Virus record (IMG/VR): IMGVR_UViG_3300021424_000040
Location: 1-55,149 of that record
Direction: 5' to 3' (one strand)
Origin: a virus
DNA: 55,149 nt
Each line of letters begins with the position of its first letter. The first letter of the stretch is position 1. The position numbers and the translations under genes were made by a program. Shown here piece by piece: positions 4,638 to 55,042 of this stretch. The notes beneath the pieces are model-generated. The model was not told the DNA's origin and searched no databases. It saw nothing but the letters and a program-made list of their open reading frames with translations.

Positions 4638-4667
4638 ACTGTAGCACGGGTGTCAACCCCCTGTCAA
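4638..4667 (-). promoter_or_regulatory. sigma70-type promoter for the 1-4.6 kb small-gene block
   Basis: Read on the minus strand, TTGACA at 4667-4662 and TACAGT at 4643-4638 are 18 bases apart, 25 bases before the ATG at 4613. The -35 box overlaps the last codons of the halogenase gene. The flank around the -35 (CAGGGGGCTTGACAGG) is shared almost exactly with the psbA promoter. Confidence 0.7.
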
Positions 4668-6085
4668 GCCCCCTGACGAAATCCATCAATATAATCTAAA
4701 TGATTCATTGTTTGATCATTAAGTTCCGAAGATAAAGCGAACGGCGGAATATCTGAATAATATTTCCATTTATATCTACGTGCAGATAATGTGTGAAAAA
4801 TCATATCTGCATTAGTAATATCATTACCATCATTGCTGTCAAATCGTTCAATCACATCATCATAAAAATCCCAATGTACATTTTTATGATCTTTCCAAAA
4901 AAGTGTATCGTTCCTATAACAAGTTTTGTATTGTGCTAAAATAAAAGCAGCCCAAAATTTATACAAATGTTCTATAGATTTATTTGAAGTCCACAAACAA
5001 TGTTCATACACAGCTCCAGATCCATATCTCTTTTGTTGACTAAACAAATATTTTAATCGTATCAATGCATCTAAAGTTAATGTTATTCCAGGTGCATCCA
5101 AAGGTTCTAAAAATCCATTACACATACCAATAGTGCAAAAATTGCTATTAAAAGTTTTTTTACTATATCTTGGTTCGAATGAAACTAATCTAGGTGATAT
5201 GTTAGTATCTCCTATATCTTGTAAAAACTCTTCTAACGCTTGTTCATGTGTCACATGTCTATCACTAAAAACATACCCCGTCCCAATCCTAGAATATGTT
5301 GGTGTTATCCATCTCCATCCATATTTCATAGTTTTAGCTATCGTATATGGGTGGAACTGTTTACGTTTTTGTTTATATTCTAAAGGATAAACATATGCTT
5401 TATTGGTTAACAGTATGTCTGATAAATCTACATATTCTAGTCCAAGTTGATCAACGATCAAACTGTTTGAACCAGTTGCAAAAATAAAATAATCTGCTTC
5501 AATATGTGATCCATTTTGAAGTTTTAAAGATTTTATTCTGTTTTCGTCAAATACACAACCTAAAACAGTACTATGAATGACTTCAAAGTTATTTGTTTTT
5601 ATATGATTTGAAAGATAATCAATATATTTTGCAGCATCAAAATGCCAAGAAATAGGGTACTCGTCAAAATTTAATATGACTTCATTTGACCTCACAATGT
5701 TAAATAAATCTTTTGCATATAAATCATGAAATTTTGTTTGACTATCTCTATTAGATAACGAAGCAAAATACGATTTTGATTTTATTTTAATGTGATTCCA
5801 TGGAGTGCCTCCACGTTTAAAGTTGTGTAAAAAATCTTCATCTGACCAGTTTTTATAAAAAACTCCATATTTAACAGCAGCATCAGACTTCACGATAAAC
5901 TCTTGCATTTTACTGCCAATGTCAGCGTGAAAATCATTTAAAACTATAGTATTGGATTCACCAACTCCTATAGGCATTATTTCTGGTGAACCAATAATAG
6001 TAACTTTTTCTATGCTTTTGTCAATGGCAAAATAGTTTGCCGCCATCCATCCAGCTGCTCCAGTTCCAATCACACATATTTTCAT
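4664..6085 (-). CDS. prnA-like: flavin-dependent tryptophan-halogenase-like protein
   Basis: A 473-residue protein of the FADH2-dependent tryptophan halogenase (PrnA/RebH) family, which chlorinates or brominates an aromatic substrate through HOCl held at a lysine. Visible are the FAD fold GTGAAG (residues 7-12), GVGES (40-44) and AVK-x8-NW with Lys72 in the place of PrnA catalytic Lys79. FATG follows at 202-205, then a WxWxI box (GWRWIT, 256-261) with Thr where Pro is usual. FLEPLDAPG at 325-333 aligns with the PrnA active-site FxEPLES-type loop; the catalytic Glu is Asp330 and the adjacent Ser is Ala. It is last in a cassette with two 2OG-Fe(II) oxygenases, next to tail-fibre genes. The substrate is unknown; a virion protein is one possibility. 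No flavin reductase is visible. Confidence 0.85.
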   Translation of the reverse strand: MKICVIGTGAAGWMAANYFAIDKSIEKVTIIGSPEIMPIGVGESNTIVLNDFHADIGSKMQEFIVKSDAAVKYGVFYKNWSDEDFLHNFKRGGTPWNHIKIKSKSYFASLSNRDSQTKFHDLYAKDLFNIVRSNEVILNFDEYPISWHFDAAKYIDYLSNHIKTNNFEVIHSTVLGCVFDENRIKSLKLQNGSHIEADYFIFATGSNSLIVDQLGLEYVDLSDILLTNKAYVYPLEYKQKRKQFHPYTIAKTMKYGWRWITPTYSRIGTGYVFSDRHVTHEQALEEFLQDIGDTNISPRLVSFEPRYSKKTFNSNFCTIGMCNGFLEPLDAPGITLTLDALIRLKYLFSQQKRYGSGAVYEHCLWTSNKSIEHLYKFWAAFILAQYKTCYRNDTLFWKDHKNVHWDFYDDVIERFDSNDGNDITNADMIFHTLSARRYKWKYYSDIPPFALSSELNDQTMNHLDYIDGFRQGA

Positions 6086-34493: not shown

Positions 34494-37199
34494 TCACTGC
34501 ATCCTACGAAGTTTTTGAAGTTCCATGACCATGTTCGTATCCATTTTTAAATCCACAAAGACAGGAGTTGAATCTGAGTATGCAGTTGATACAATACCAT
34601 TTGATTTACTCATAGGCATCTCTATAGTAGTAACTTTTGCAGCTGGTTTGTTTTCTGTAGCAGTTACAGTTGAAGTTGGTGATGCTGGTGGAGTCACTGG
34701 CGATTTTTGCTGCAACACTGATTGTATTTCTTCATAACCAGATTGTCCCGACTTAACTTTGTTAGCAAGTTTTGGGTATAATTTTGCCCATTGTTGCATT
34801 GGAGTTAGATTTGGATCAACTACAGTAGTGGTTATTTTTTCTACAGCATTTGCTTGTGGTTTTTTGCTTTGTGGTTTTGACGATGATGATGTTGGTCTTC
34901 TATCTTGTATAAACCTATTTTGAACACCTGGAGCATTCAAAGTATTCATCGTATAACTTTTTCCTGATTTGTTTAACTGCTGCCAACCGTAGTTTTTACC
35001 TGCCCAATAAACATCTTTGCCATTTAGTTTTGCTTTTGAACCCAACTCTCTTTCCTTTTTTTTGGTTTTAAAAACACCCATGGGATCCCACCATGCATTA
35101 CCACCAGAAGCAAAACTAGGTTTATTTTGATGAGTCCATTCAACTGGGTCTATCCTGTCTCCCCAGCTACCTTTCCTAACTTCCCAGTGTAGGTGTACCC
35201 CTTCAGAGTGTCCAGTTGTACCCGTTGTTCCCAAAACCTGCCCCGCTTGTACCTTAGATCCCTTAGTAATGCTATCTGCCACTTTTTCTAAGTGACCATA
35301 AAATGTGAATATCTTGGGAGAGTCATGTTGAATCTCCACATAGTTTCCATAACCATAACCACTATTTTTTGGCCAGTCTCTATTAACATCAGTAATCGTT
35401 CCAGCAAAGGGAGTAATAATCTTAAGATTTTGATATCCTGCTGGAGCTAAGTCGATACCAGTGTGGGGTTTGCCCCACCGCATACCAAATCCAGAAATAT
35501 AATGTAATTTTCCCGTGTCTGATTTTGTATACGGAACCCACGCAGGAGGTTTAGAAACATTAGTTCCCCCCATTCCACCAAGACCTTCGCCATTTGGTCC
35601 GATTGTCAAAATATCTTTTGCTATTTCTGCAGCACCACCACCTTCTCCATCTTCTCCTTCGCGTACCCCACCTTCAAAAATCAAACGGTTATTCTTAAAA
35701 TATAGTTTCCATGACTTATAGAACTTCCTTTCTTCACCTTCATTAGGAATCACGCCAGCATATGCTGGTCCACCTAACATATCCAAAACAATATTTACGG
35801 GTATGCCAAGTATTGATGCAGCAGACTGAACTAACTTTGGTAACGCATTATTAAAATATCCTGCGAGTGGTCCCAAGGAAGACAATACATTACCAAATAC
35901 AGATATTACTGAACCCAGCAATCCTTTCATGGGCAAAGACATAACTTTGCCCAATCCATTGATGTATTCAATCTCATCATAGTTACCAAACATATCTTTA
36001 CCATAGTTTCTATTCAATGGTATAATCGCTGTGCCTGGTGCCAAGTTTCCTACAGTAGGATTAGTATAGATTCCAGGTTGGATTATATTTTTTAGTCCAG
36101 TGCCAGGAGATATGCCACCTTCTGCCATTGCTGGCATGGAAGTTGACATCAAACCAGAAGAGGCTTTTCTTGGCGATTGTGGTTTGGTATCTGGTTTCCA
36201 AAACTCCCACCATTGTTTTGGTGGTTCTGGTTCTTGTTTTGGTTCTGGTACTTCAGGAGTAGACTCTTGTTGTATCGGTTCTTTATCTACTTGAATATCA
36301 TCCAATCCCAAATCAATAGATTGTTCTCTTGATTTAGATTCAAGATCATTTAGAAACTCAGTGTAGTTTTCTACTTGCTGACCAACTAAAAACTGGGCAA
36401 GTTTTAATCCTTCATTACTAGATCTTATGACAGAAGTTCTTCTCTTAACTAATGTCGTCTGCGCGGATAACTCAGCACTTATGTTATCTAAAATAGCAGA
36501 TAACTCAGTAATCTTTTGACGTGCAGCATTAGGAAACTTCTTGGGGATTAACTGCAAAGGAGACTTAGACTCAGTAGAGTTTGAAATAACTTCTTCTTCA
36601 GGTGAAGAAGCAAGAGTTTCTGTTAAAGATTTTGGACTATCTTCTGATGTCTCGGCATCTACTATTTCTTTTATCTTAGTCTCTTCTTCTTGTTGCTGAG
36701 CAAGTTTAATATCAGAAGAGTTTGTGTAACTACCTTCCCATGGATCCGCAATAGGTTCCATAGGTGCTATCAAAGGTTCTGCTGCTTGAACATTTGCAGA
36801 CTTTCTGCCCTTGACTATCTCAGCTATTCTAGATTGAACTTGTTTTGCTTCAATCTTATCATCAACTTCTTTGCGAAAAGGTTTCTCTAGAAACTCCTCA
36901 ACCAACCATTTCTGATATTGCTCTTGATTGTATGCACCACCGTACTTATCATTCTGATTGACTTGAGGATACCAACCACCAGATTTAATGTTCTCGATTA
37001 ATCGATTGGCGTCTGCTTCAGACAATTTGACATAAGATGAGTATCTAGTACCACCTAGTTCAGGCAGTTCTCTACCAGTCAATCTACCTTTAAGTATTAA
37101 CCAAGATTTTTCACCAGTTTTGTCCGCAGGCCACCATGGTTGCTTAGGATCTAATATACCCTCTGGCGGTTGTTCTATTTCTAAGTCTTCTGGATTCAT
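34494..37199 (-). CDS. virion protein with M23 (LytM) peptidase domain (901 aa)
   Basis: The N-terminal 130 residues contain WWPADKTGEKSWLILKGRLTG and a domain of unknown type. A long charged region follows, with a helical segment (KITELSAILDNISAELSAQT). A tape-measure-like segment is MAEGGISPGTGLKNIIQPG with GTAIIPLNRNYG. The zinc-peptidase domain (about 560-690) shows GKPHTGIDLAPAG (His and Asp ligands), FTFYGHLEKV and GVHLHWEVRKG (HxH), all M23 metal-site residues. Such enzymes cut peptide cross-links. The C-terminus repeats the WWDPMGVFK motif. It is probably in the tail tip or tube, with the neighbouring lysozyme protein covering the glycan bond. Confidence 0.75.
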   Translation of the reverse strand: MNPEDLEIEQPPEGILDPKQPWWPADKTGEKSWLILKGRLTGRELPELGGTRYSSYVKLSEADANRLIENIKSGGWYPQVNQNDKYGGAYNQEQYQKWLVEEFLEKPFRKEVDDKIEAKQVQSRIAEIVKGRKSANVQAAEPLIAPMEPIADPWEGSYTNSSDIKLAQQQEEETKIKEIVDAETSEDSPKSLTETLASSPEEEVISNSTESKSPLQLIPKKFPNAARQKITELSAILDNISAELSAQTTLVKRRTSVIRSSNEGLKLAQFLVGQQVENYTEFLNDLESKSREQSIDLGLDDIQVDKEPIQQESTPEVPEPKQEPEPPKQWWEFWKPDTKPQSPRKASSGLMSTSMPAMAEGGISPGTGLKNIIQPGIYTNPTVGNLAPGTAIIPLNRNYGKDMFGNYDEIEYINGLGKVMSLPMKGLLGSVISVFGNVLSSLGPLAGYFNNALPKLVQSAASILGIPVNIVLDMLGGPAYAGVIPNEGEERKFYKSWKLYFKNNRLIFEGGVREGEDGEGGGAAEIAKDILTIGPNGEGLGGMGGTNVSKPPAWVPYTKSDTGKLHYISGFGMRWGKPHTGIDLAPAGYQNLKIITPFAGTITDVNRDWPKNSGYGYGNYVEIQHDSPKIFTFYGHLEKVADSITKGSKVQAGQVLGTTGTTGHSEGVHLHWEVRKGSWGDRIDPVEWTHQNKPSFASGGNAWWDPMGVFKTKKKERELGSKAKLNGKDVYWAGKNYGWQQLNKSGKSYTMNTLNAPGVQNRFIQDRRPTSSSSKPQSKKPQANAVEKITTTVVDPNLTPMQQWAKLYPKLANKVKSGQSGYEEIQSVLQQKSPVTPPASPTSTVTATENKPAAKVTTIEMPMSKSNGIVSTAYSDSTPVFVDLKMDTNMVMELQKLRRMQ

Positions 37200-49608: not shown

Positions 49609-50691
49609 TCAACCGATTGCAGGTGCGGTGAGAGCAACAGGAGTTGCATCAGCAGCAGCAAGATCAAGAGGGAAGTTGTGAGCGTTGCGCTCGTGCATCA
49701 CTTCCATACCAAGACCACCACGATTCAAGATGTCTGCCCAAGTTGGGATGACACGATTGGAACTATCAACGATTGATTGGTTGAAGTTGAATCCGTTGAG
49801 GTTGAATGCCATGGTGCTAACACCAAGAGCAGTAAACCAGATACCGACAACAGGCCAAGCAGCAAGGAAGAAGTGCAGTGAACGTGAGTTGTTGAACGAT
49901 GCATACTGGAAGATCAGACGACCAAAGTAACCGTGAGCAGCTACAATGTTGTATGTTTCTTCTTCTTGTCCAAACTTGTATCCGTAGTTCTGGGATTCGT
50001 TCTCTGTGGTTTCACGAACGAGGGAACTTGTGACCAAAGATCCATGCATAGCAGAGAAAAGAGAACCGCCAAATACACCAGCCACCCCAAGCATATGGAA
50101 GGGGTGCATGAGGATGTTATGCTCCGCCTGAAAAACAAGCATGTAGTTAAATGTTCCACTAATGCCGAGCGGCATGGCATCAGAGAAGGAACCTTGTCCA
50201 AAGGGATACACGAGGAAAACTGCAGAAGCAGCAGCAACGGGTGCGCTGTAGGCAACACAAATCCAAGGACGCATACCCAGTCGGTAAGAGAGTTCCCATT
50301 CACGACCCATGTAGGCATAGATACCGATTAGAAAGTGGAAGACGACCAGTTGAAATGGTCCACCATTATATAGCCACTCATCGAGTGAAGCGGCTTCCCA
50401 GATGGGATAGAAGTGCAGTCCAATAGCATTGGACGATGGGACAACAGCACCAGAGATGATGTTGTTTCCATACATAAGAGAACCAGCGACGGGCTCACGG
50501 ATGCCGTCAATATCCACGGGGGGTGCGGCGATGAAGGCGACGATGAAGCAGATGGTTGCTGCAAGCAGGGTGGGAATCATAAGAGTTCCAAACCAACCGA
50601 CATACAAACGATTGTCGGTAGAGGTAACCCACTCGCAGAAGTTTTGCCAAATGTTTTCACCACCGCGACGTGTTGCGATAGTTGCAGTCAT
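49609..50691 (-). CDS. psbA: photosystem II D1 protein
   Basis: A full-length 360-residue D1 protein. The N-terminal helix region has [20 protein letters not shown], then [14 protein letters not shown] and the central [20 protein letters not shown]. The residue corresponding to D1 position 130 is Glu (MGREWEL), as in the high-light D1:2 type. The QB loop includes [20 protein letters not shown]. The C-terminus is [20 protein letters not shown], so the cleavage site after the conserved Ala is kept. It replaces damaged host D1 so that photosystem II stays active in infection. Its GC is visibly higher than the fibre genes, in line with a host origin. It has a strong promoter and late box. Confidence 0.97.
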
Positions 50692-50759: not shown

Positions 50760-50785
50760 GTAGCACGGTTCCCCGTACCTGTCAA
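50757..50785 (-). promoter_or_regulatory. sigma70-type promoter of psbA
   Basis: TTGACA (50785-50780), 17 bases, TACTAT (50762-50757) on the minus strand, giving a leader of about 59 bases. The flank GTCAGGGGGCTTGACAGG is nearly the same as at 4661-4676. Confidence 0.8.
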
Positions 50786-50804
50786 GCCCCCTGACAGCAC
50801 CATT

Positions 50805-50812
50805 TATAAATA
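50805..50812 (+). promoter_or_regulatory. late promoter box for the 878-aa fibre gene
   Basis: TATAAATA on the plus strand, 33-40 bases before the ATG at 50846. Confidence 0.65.
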
Positions 50813-50845: not shown

Positions 50846-53482
50846 ATGGCAAATCGCTTTCCGTTAATTGGTAACTCTGTCACTAAAAGATTAGAAGAAC
50901 TGGCAACAGGGGACAACTTAAATCTGTCTCAAAGTGGCATTTATGATGGTGTTGGAGTAGGTAATGAGGGTCAGATACTTTATTCTACTGGTGATGGTGT
51001 TGAGTGGGCAAATGTCCCCGCAGAAATAGATACAACATATTCCATAGGTGCAGAAGATGGCACTGATGGGAAAAAAATTATTAGATTAACAGACGTAAAC
51101 TTGGTTACGGATGATGTTACATTAGTTCCTGGAACAAATATTTCATTAAGTAGAAGCAACGATGAAATAACAATCAATGCTACTTACATCGATAACGATA
51201 CTATCACCAGTATTAAAGGCGGTTCAGCAGGTAGCTTTGTCACTGGAGATGTAACTATTTCTCCATCTGGTTCGGTTTTCATTACTCAAGCAGGCAATAC
51301 TATCACTATTGGTGCTTCAGATACCAACACCATTACTAGATTGAAGGGTGGTTCTTCTGGTTCATTTGTTACTGGGGATGTTACTATCACTGCATCTGGT
51401 GCTTCATCGGCTTCTCAAGCAGGAAATACGATTAACATCATAAGCACAGATACAATAACAAGAATCAAAGGAGGAGCATCTGGGTCTTTCACTACTGGAG
51501 ATGTAACATTTACTGGAGGAGCAGCAACTACAGTATCGCAAAACGGTCAAACTGTTACAGTATCATCCCCCAATACAACTTATGGATTGAATGTAGGAAG
51601 CAGTTCAACAACAGTAAAAACTATTACATTAGCTGGTTCTGATAATACCAACGTAGTAGTATCTCTAACTGCTGGTCCTGGTGTTATATTAACAGTTGAC
51701 AATAATGACATTGAGTTTTCGGTAGACGTAACAACTATTAATGTTTCGGACTTAGGGGACACCACAATCACAAACCCAACAAACGGGCAAGTACTAAAAT
51801 ATAGTAGTGATGGATGGATAAATCAAGCAGTAAACTATTCTGAAATATCAAATCTACCAGATTTAAAGACTGTAGCAACTACTGGTTCTTATAGCGACCT
51901 ACTGAATCTACCAGATTTAAAGACTGTAGCAACTACTGGTTCTTATAGCGACCTACTGAATCTACCAGATTTAAAGACTGTAGCAACTACTGGTTCTTAT
52001 AGCGACCTACTGAATCTACCAGACTTGGTAACAGATGCTTCGGACTTAACAGATACAACGGGAAGATTCTTCTCTGGAGATTATGAAGACTTAGACAATA
52101 CTCCAGCATTATCACAGTTAGCAATCAGTGCTGACTATAACGACATTCAAGTTAATAAACCCACTATTCCTCCCGATAGAGAGTATGTAGTATCAGCAGA
52201 AACTGATGTCTCTGGAGCTGCAATAAGATTAAGAGAAATAAATGCACTGGTTGATGATAACCTATTAATCCAATCTGGTTCTGGAATAAACGTAAGTAGA
52301 ATAGACGAAAATACTATCAATATTTCATCTACTATAAGTGGATTGCCTAGCGGTCTAACTGCAACTGCATCGTCTTTGGTTTTTGAAGGTGCTACGGTCA
52401 ATACCTTCAAAACTACTTTATCTGTTGTCGATCCTACTGCTAATAGAACTCTAACTTTACCCAACGCAAATGGTACAATTATTATAGATTCCACGAACAA
52501 AACATATGCATCTGATGTAACAGAAACAGATAGTAAGTTTTACGAATCAAAGCTAGGTCTATTGGGTTCAAATACTGGCGCCACAACATATTCGATTATT
52601 GCTGGCACTAAGGGATTAGTTGTAAGTTCCGATGCTGCAGTTGGTGGTCAGCAATCTGCATCACTAGGAAGAGGCATGACTATAACTCCTCCTCCATCTG
52701 TACACATAGGAACCGCTGCTCCATCATGGGCTAAAGATGGAGACCTATGGTATAACAATCAGACGGGAACATTAAGAATATTTGATGAAAGTTTATATCC
52801 TACACCAGATGTTACTGTTGATTATTTCCAAGCAGTAGATCAGGGAGAAGGTAGATTCTTCTGTGATAGAGCTCCACTCATTTATATCCCATTGGAATCT
52901 CAATATGTAGTTGGTCCTGGCATTCCAACAGGAGCATTTGTAAGTAGTAGATTTGATCCACAAACAGGAAATAATGTTGGTTGGTTTAACTTAAATACAA
53001 CAGTCACTAGTAACATACCACACAACGCAACTCTAAGAGTTTATAACTCAAATCCAAATGTAAACATAAACAATATTTGGAGAGTTTTATACGAACAATC
53101 AGACTCTTTACAATCCAGAACAGCAGCAGTGGTAACTACGTCCGCATTAGCGCCCAGTGTTGGGGAAAATGTAACTTTTAATGGATTCAAAACATATTCC
53201 CTCCTAAAAATTCAAACAAATAAAGAAGCTTGGGTTACTTTATACACCAGTGAATCTGCAAGAACTAATGATGCCTCAAGATCAGAAGGTACTTCTGCTC
53301 CAGATAACTCAGGAATCATTTGTGATTTTATTACAGGTGGTGCAGAAACAATAATAGTAACTCCAGTAAAAATAGGATTTACCGAAAATGGCACTACCAA
53401 TATTCCCGCCAGAATCGTAAATAAAACTGGAATAGAACAAACCGTCACAGTAACCATAACTTTGGTAAAACTCGAAGCATAA
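50846..53482 (+). CDS. repeat-rich tail-fibre-like protein (878 aa)
   Basis: It starts MANRFPLIGNSVTKRLEELA, then follow three degenerate units of about 33 residues (IKGGSAGSFVTGDVTI, LKGGSSGSFVTGDVTI, IKGGASGSFTTGDVTF), a beta-rich shaft pattern. Residues 334-390 hold three exact 18-residue tandem repeats (NLPDLKTVATTGSYSDLL), and the repeat ends with a variant. Later regions are beta-rich and end in a possible adhesive tip (FITGGAETIIVTPVKIGFTE). It is probably a fibre or virion adhesin, with a late box upstream; no enzyme motif is seen. It is the only structural gene on the plus strand between psbA and hli. Confidence 0.75.
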   Translation: MANRFPLIGNSVTKRLEELATGDNLNLSQSGIYDGVGVGNEGQILYSTGDGVEWANVPAEIDTTYSIGAEDGTDGKKIIRLTDVNLVTDDVTLVPGTNISLSRSNDEITINATYIDNDTITSIKGGSAGSFVTGDVTISPSGSVFITQAGNTITIGASDTNTITRLKGGSSGSFVTGDVTITASGASSASQAGNTINIISTDTITRIKGGASGSFTTGDVTFTGGAATTVSQNGQTVTVSSPNTTYGLNVGSSSTTVKTITLAGSDNTNVVVSLTAGPGVILTVDNNDIEFSVDVTTINVSDLGDTTITNPTNGQVLKYSSDGWINQAVNYSEISNLPDLKTVATTGSYSDLLNLPDLKTVATTGSYSDLLNLPDLKTVATTGSYSDLLNLPDLVTDASDLTDTTGRFFSGDYEDLDNTPALSQLAISADYNDIQVNKPTIPPDREYVVSAETDVSGAAIRLREINALVDDNLLIQSGSGINVSRIDENTINISSTISGLPSGLTATASSLVFEGATVNTFKTTLSVVDPTANRTLTLPNANGTIIIDSTNKTYASDVTETDSKFYESKLGLLGSNTGATTYSIIAGTKGLVVSSDAAVGGQQSASLGRGMTITPPPSVHIGTAAPSWAKDGDLWYNNQTGTLRIFDESLYPTPDVTVDYFQAVDQGEGRFFCDRAPLIYIPLESQYVVGPGIPTGAFVSSRFDPQTGNNVGWFNLNTTVTSNIPHNATLRVYNSNPNVNINNIWRVLYEQSDSLQSRTAAVVTTSALAPSVGENVTFNGFKTYSLLKIQTNKEAWVTLYTSESARTNDASRSEGTSAPDNSGIICDFITGGAETIIVTPVKIGFTENGTTNIPARIVNKTGIEQTVTVTITLVKLEA
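51851..52012 (+). repeat. three identical 54-bp tandem repeats in the fibre gene
   Basis: Units at 51851-51904, 51905-51958 and 51959-52012 are identical at every base and encode 18 residues each, in frame. A degenerate fourth begins at 52013 (AATCTACCAGACTTGG). They are not a CRISPR: no spacers, and the reading frame continues through them. Confidence 0.95.
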
Positions 53483-53512
53483 AAAAGGGGGGTCTATAGA
53501 CCCCCCTTTAAA
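53481..53512. terminator. bidirectional terminator between fibre and hli operon
   Basis: A 20-base perfect palindrome (GGGGGGTCTATAGACCCCCC, 53487-53506) is flanked by AAAAAA on the left and TTTAAA on the right. For minus-strand transcripts it has a full T-tract; for the plus-strand fibre transcript the T-tract is short. Confidence 0.8.
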
Positions 53513-54136: not shown

Positions 54137-54165
54137 AGTATATAGTATTGTAAAGAGTTTGTCAA
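54137..54165 (-). promoter_or_regulatory. sigma70-type promoter of the hli operon
   Basis: TTGACA (54165-54160), 17 bases, TATACT (54142-54137) on the minus strand. The flank ends GGGGCTTGACA as in the psbA promoter. Confidence 0.8.
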
Positions 54166-54233
54166 GCCCCATCTGTCAGCAAATGACAATAAGCATTTCC
54201 ACTCATCTAAATAGCTCGTTATACTACACCCAT

Positions 54234-54727: not shown

Positions 54728-54875
54728 TGCTGCTATACGAAGGCACAATAGGAATGCTTCCATTATTTCTATGTGCGTTGGTTGGCTGGTTCTTGCTTTA
54801 TTTGCTGAAGGATTGCTGAGATTGATTGGCGTCATTCCCCCACTACTACCATGGCTCAACATTACCCTGAAATAA
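54657..54875 (+). CDS. small membrane protein (72 aa)
   Basis: MSHRMNQIQPEHLVTKKECQ is followed by one long hydrophobic segment (residues about 36-60, ISMCVGWLVLALFAEGLLRL). Possible starts at 54657, 54669 or 54720 cannot be separated; the overlap with the 56-residue gene is smallest for the last. Probably a membrane-anchored peptide; the role is unknown. Confidence 0.5.
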   Translation: MSHRMNQIQPEHLVTKKECQEMIDAAIRRHNRNASIISMCVGWLVLALFAEGLLRLIGVIPPLLPWLNITLK

Positions 54876-55042
54876 TCGGTATTGCTTTTCTATTGGTCTT
54901 TGCTGCCACGATGTTCTATCAAGGCACAATGATTATGAAAGGATTGAGAGGTTACAGACACTGTGCAAGAGATCAACACGAATCAGAAAATATGCGACGA
55001 AGATTAGAAGAAATGATGAACAAAAAAATAAATGATCACTGA
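54851..55042 (+). CDS. small membrane protein (63 aa)
   Basis: MAQHYPEIIGIAFLLVFAAT has a transmembrane helix at residues 8-30, then a basic amphipathic end (ENMRRRLEEMMNKKINDH). It overlaps the previous gene by 25 bases and the next start by 11. It is a likely inner-membrane peptide of unknown role. Confidence 0.55.
   Translation: MAQHYPEIIGIAFLLVFAATMFYQGTMIMKGLRGYRHCARDQHESENMRRRLEEMMNKKINDH

Follow-up and report, generated by a model that had tools for sequence, protein, structure and literature searches.

Phage fibres commonly contain short repeat units, the number of which changes now and then. In T4, duplications in the tail-fibre adhesin have reportedly been found (work ascribed to Tetart and colleagues in 1996). 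As in the locus described here, a small segment of a fibre is said to be duplicated, but in T4 it belongs to the adhesin part of the fibre, whereas the present repeat is linker-like and lies away from the C-terminus. Tail-fibre domain duplications are described, in the available portions of the report, for the Xanthomonas phages OP1, Xp10, and Xop411 (PMC2248197). According to the same portions, these are in-frame copies of a small fibre domain whose number differs between relatives, as is the case here, and the changes in OP1 mutants accompany host range, whereas the present array is known from its sequence alone. In the Enterococcus phage EfV12-phi1, tandem copies of 1.8 kb arose in a fibre gene under coevolution, by a mechanism that the authors, in the text available, state is not known (PMC6365445). 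These copies are likewise in frame and, in the sections available, are placed upstream of a predicted binding domain, but their unit is more than 30 times longer than the one analysed here and they arose under laboratory selection. Tail-associated BACON repeats of crAss-like phages, tandem protein repeats like the present ones, expanded in one lineage through successive duplications according to the available part of that study (PMC6949934). BACON is, however, a named domain of carbohydrate-binding type with a family model, whereas the repeat described below is 18 aa long and no family was found for it. In the excerpts available on the evolution of cyanophage S-TIM4, mutations in fibre and baseplate genes are described and a change in repeat copy number is not (PMC6224464). 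Kayvirus 812 was considered as a further parallel and rejected, its tandem repeats lying, in the available text, at the genome end and not in a fibre (PMC6445280).

The locus was found in a cyanomyovirus contig, the whole of which (a virus record of 55,149 bases) is referred to below as the window. As in the duplications that alter host range, in-frame perfect tandem copies were present in a fibre gene, and the window array belongs with the known phage-fibre duplications. By analogy with these systems, an effect of the array on host range is possible.

The array was encoded in an 878-aa ORF (50846–53482, + strand), the product of which was assigned as a tail-fibre-like virion structural protein. 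The ORF was divergent from psbA (49609–50691; phrog_182, photosystem II D1), located upstream. Genes for a 3512-aa tail-fibre protein and for a baseplate hub and tail lysozyme were found on the strand opposite to the 878-aa ORF. The DNA of the window matched 273 records of Synechococcus and other cyanophages, none of which reached 80% query coverage, and the DNA of the 878-aa ORF gave no match against the phage collection. At the protein level, residues 60–292 matched phrog_6002, "virion structural protein" (E 2.2e-55), and blastp matched the N-terminus to cyanophage proteins annotated as "structural protein" or "tail fiber-like". Three degenerate repeats of ~43 aa (DTITxxKGGxxGSFxTGDVTI...; 51197–51568, +; 129-nt spacing) formed part of this N-terminal module, which is common to other cyanophage structural proteins (phrog_6002). 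The C-terminal module (53108–53479, +; phrog_9627 and phrog_15343) also had cyanophage protein matches; its 124 residues resembled small structural proteins and a cyanophage "baseplate wedge subunit and tail pin". Since both terminal modules match cyanophage structural proteins, the 878-aa product is predicted to be a modular fibre-like protein, with a putative location in the virion taken from the annotation of its homologues. The original prediction that the array lies in a fibre thus holds in the form of a fibre-like structural protein.

Directly 3' of the stop codon, a perfect hairpin was present (53484–53509, +; -20.9 kcal/mol, z -4.6), which is a probable terminator. On the other side of the ORF, ~33 bp upstream of it, TATAAATA, the T4 late promoter consensus, was found at 50805–50812 (+), but the five matches in the window are at chance level. 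Separately, TGTCAAGCCC occurred three times on the + strand (4662–4671, 50780–50789, and 54160–54169; expected 0.06). The first copy overlapped the end of an ORF at 4664–6085 (-), an auxiliary-type gene in a cyanophage that matched phrog_2928, "tryptophan halogenase" (E 1.1e-79). The second lay between psbA and the fibre gene, and the third overlapped the region of a short ORF near 54160. The window also contained a 901-aa ORF (34494–37199, -), in which residues ~562–713 resembled a metallo-endopeptidase or endolysin.

Within the fibre gene, at 51851–52023 (173 bp), a 54-bp unit was repeated perfectly 3.2 times in tandem. Three copies at 51851–51904, 51905–51958, and 51959–52012 (all +), as originally predicted, were base-identical and in frame, and a partial fourth copy of 11 bp (AATCTACCAGA, 52013–52023, +), located within the fourth protein unit described below, continued the period. 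All copies were in one frame of the ORF, each encoding 18 aa. The array had a TRF score of 346, compared with 59 for the second-best repeat in the window, and its exact self-match at period 54 was 119 nt long. When synonymous codons were shuffled with the protein kept (n = 2000), the longest match at period 54 was 35 nt and none of the 2000 shuffles reached 119 nt; when codon order was shuffled (n = 300), the longest match at any period of 20–199 was 14. The likeness of the copies at the DNA level therefore far exceeds what a repeated protein needs.

The encoded repeat, hereafter the YxDL unit, was 18 aa long with the pattern Y-x-D-L-x-x-x-P-x-L-x-x-V-A-x-x-G-x. Six units with Y-x-[DE]-[LI] and a proline a few residues on were identified in the 878-aa protein, at residues 331, 349, 367, 385, 413, and 431. 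Tandem Y-x-D-L-x-x-x-P at 18-aa spacing was thus present in the window array, unit 1 having Y-x-E-I. The second half of unit 1 (51836–51889, +) was identical to units 2 and 3, the whole unit being 85% identical. A spacer of 18 residues, VTDASDLTDTTGRFFSGD (52028–52081, +), was situated in and after unit 4 and was kept in relatives, where it lay one unit earlier; it was followed by the diverged units 5 and 6 (52082–52174, +). The perfect DNA copies began inside unit 1 and stopped inside unit 4.

No Pfam family matched the 878-aa protein at E up to 1, and the window array fragment gave three weak Pfam matches, all below the cut-off. When 100 arrays were compared with Pfam, 48 had scattered matches to unrelated families (E up to 0.1; the best was EBNA2_N, 2e-6), which, judged without family cut-offs for these members, look compositional. 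A PDB sequence search with the 878-aa protein, the array, or the array profile gave no meaningful match. In the literature, no paper on the YxDL motif was found, which is weak evidence as such letters are seldom printed, and "SYNDL" returned a dynamin-like protein as the sole match among the matches listed. AlphaFold2 yielded a mean pLDDT of 33 for the whole 878-aa protein and, for the array with 100 aligned arrays, a mean pLDDT of 63 and a pTM of 0.16; both models were set aside, their confidence being too low to interpret, so that a role in the shaft is argued from position and homology. From its place between the N- and C-terminal modules, the YxDL unit is probably a spacer in a shaft or linker.

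Only one near-identical contig was found, the twin IMGVR_UViG_3300020200_000256 (L002/L006), which carried an identical three-copy array. It differed from the window by 9 mismatches in 12,093 nt, all within 57 bp at 54842–54898; window and twin are both assembled contigs, possibly not independent samples. The mismatch cluster may be a patch of recombination or may stem from assembly close to the end of the contig. The window and the L006 contig ended at the same base. The nearest relatives beyond the twin were L003 and L004 (72% and 71% aa identity), the protein sequence of L005 being the same as that of L004. Further scans for closer relatives returned the same four contigs and no closer outgroup, and a gain in the window versus a loss in the relatives is therefore unpolarised.

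Window units 2 and 3 were 100% identical to each other, whereas neither exceeded 72% identity to any unit of L003 or L004, and adjoining units inside L003 and L004 were 43–63% identical. All 39 third positions compared between the window copies, including 24 fourfold sites, were identical, which puts fourfold divergence below ~0.12 (rule of three). Between L003 and L004, 79 of 449 fourfold sites differed and the array was unchanged. With DNA identity beyond the need of the protein and no third-position difference, the evidence supports window copies that are young or recently homogenised; the original prediction, that the copies arose recently or are kept equal by recombination, is borne out by an identity unmatched in 2000 synonymous shuffles. 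We consider it probable, with good confidence, that the array is the YxDL segment of a cyanomyovirus fibre-like protein in which the 54-bp unit was recently duplicated in frame, or homogenised, by slippage or unequal recombination. Alternatively, older units may be kept identical by ongoing gene conversion with no net change in number. An identity that runs from the middle of unit 1 to the middle of unit 4, ignoring the borders of the protein units, is in line with such conversion, but a simple duplication in the same phase would look no different, and neither the units of the relatives nor units 5 and 6 of the window array itself have been homogenised; this explanation is conceivable but rather unlikely.

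The YxDL repeat was found in several phage groups. When IMG/VR was scanned with a pattern of two tandem units followed by the beginning of another, at least 119 stretches were found; the pattern imposed Y, D, L, P, V, A, and G, whose conservation is thus partly by construction. By motif search, arrays were identified in at least 118 distinct IMG/VR contigs (L002–L005 included) and at 13 named-phage loci, the named phages being PA5oct-like Pseudomonas phages, KIL phages, and Synechococcus phages. Unit spacing was 18 aa in 405 of 510 cases and 14 aa in 60 of 510, a count that includes duplicate loci and refers to the matches listed. The arrays of PA5oct-like phages and other IMG/VR contigs had the same 18-aa period and motif as the window, but, unlike in the window, their units were mostly diverged and their number was fixed. 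An exact run of at least 54 nt at period 54 was present in 11 of the 118 IMG/VR contigs listed, the twin L002 among them. The longest perfect run among 134 loci, a list from which L002 was left out and in which three loci repeating the L003–L005 contigs were kept, was that of the window (119 nt), followed by L058 (113), L046 (102), and L052 (90). Perfect neighbouring copies are thus recurrent and not unique to the window.

To compare copy number, ORFs with arrays were paired when their flanks (as much as 60 aa on either side) were at least 90% identical, with duplicates on the same contig removed. Of the resulting 17 groups of close relatives, array length was constant in 14, including ten PA5oct-like phages (45 pairs), nine related IMG/VR contigs (33 pairs), and KIL3/KIL3b, and it differed in the other three (-18, -22, and -88 aa). 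Alignment at the DNA level covered one of the three length changes, that between L094 and L111, where L111 carried 54 bp extra, in frame and inside the array, the DNA being otherwise nearly identical. The protein flanks of this pair were 98% identical, and L064 had the same array length as L094. This clean 54-bp in-frame indel shows that gain or loss of a whole unit occurs in nature in the YxDL repeat family. The expectation that slippage changes length while the frame is kept was accordingly borne out for the repeat family (L094 and L064 versus L111) and not for the window array itself. Between near-identical phages, copy number differed by one unit in L094/L111 of the repeat family and was the same in the window and its twin. 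Because array length was fixed in those 14 groups, frequent phase-like length variation is not the rule.

These comparisons bear on a second alternative, an adaptive length switch in which copy number changes often within a population and thereby alters how far the fibre reaches and which hosts are infected. In OP1 and its relatives, host range changes with fibre duplications (PMC2248197), and in EfV12-phi1 such duplications arise under coevolution (PMC6365445), as far as the available portions of both reports go, and one natural pair of the YxDL family differs by one unit; but the twin has the same copy number as the window, 14 of 17 groups show no length change, and the total length of the window array equals that of its relatives, and we regard such a switch as improbable. 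As for that total, L003 and L004 have three units, the spacer, and three units, whereas the window has four units, the spacer, and two units, and all have six units and 878 aa. Because the window's surplus of one unit ahead of the spacer is offset by a deficit of one behind it, the fibre in the window is no longer than that of the relatives, and a lengthening of the fibre by the expansion, as originally proposed, is not supported.

Another alternative with a low probability is that assembly produced the copy number, by collapsing a perfect array that is in truth longer or expanding one that is shorter. An exact repeat of 119 nt requires overlaps or k-mers longer than 119 to be crossed unambiguously, and four perfect copies require more than 173. 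The window run is near the resolving limit of short-read k-mers and is the longest of the 134 loci, suggesting a ceiling, but two contigs, though possibly not independent samples, agree on three copies. Because long perfect arrays need longer overlaps, the contig collection is probably biased against them. The copy number given here is that of a contig, not of a molecule, and the real copy number, or its range, may exceed the three copies of the contig. Finally, it is very unlikely that the YxDL array acts as a length-buffered ruler in which a gain on one side of the spacer is matched by a loss on the other, with selection holding six units and 878 aa, and the opposite unit changes across the spacer in two lineages may be due to chance; if the ruler were real, unit turnover would leave fibre length unchanged.

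On the favoured explanation, recent in-frame duplication or homogenisation, the YxDL array, flanked by the N-terminal part and the C-terminal module, would serve as a shaft or linker. In the window lineage, a 54-bp unit would recently have been duplicated in frame, or the units homogenised, presumably through slippage or unequal recombination between adjoining copies, either of which could act. Each such event would add or remove one whole unit with the frame intact, and an added unit would be expected to change the length or flexibility of the spacer and not to create a new receptor site. For the window locus alone, the consequence is modest. The YxDL repeat is widespread, and the searches described above found neither a Pfam family nor a solved relative for it; what structure it adopts and how it affects fibre length can both be tested. 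Together, the window array and the L094/L111 indel provide a concrete example of short fibre repeats turning over in whole units.
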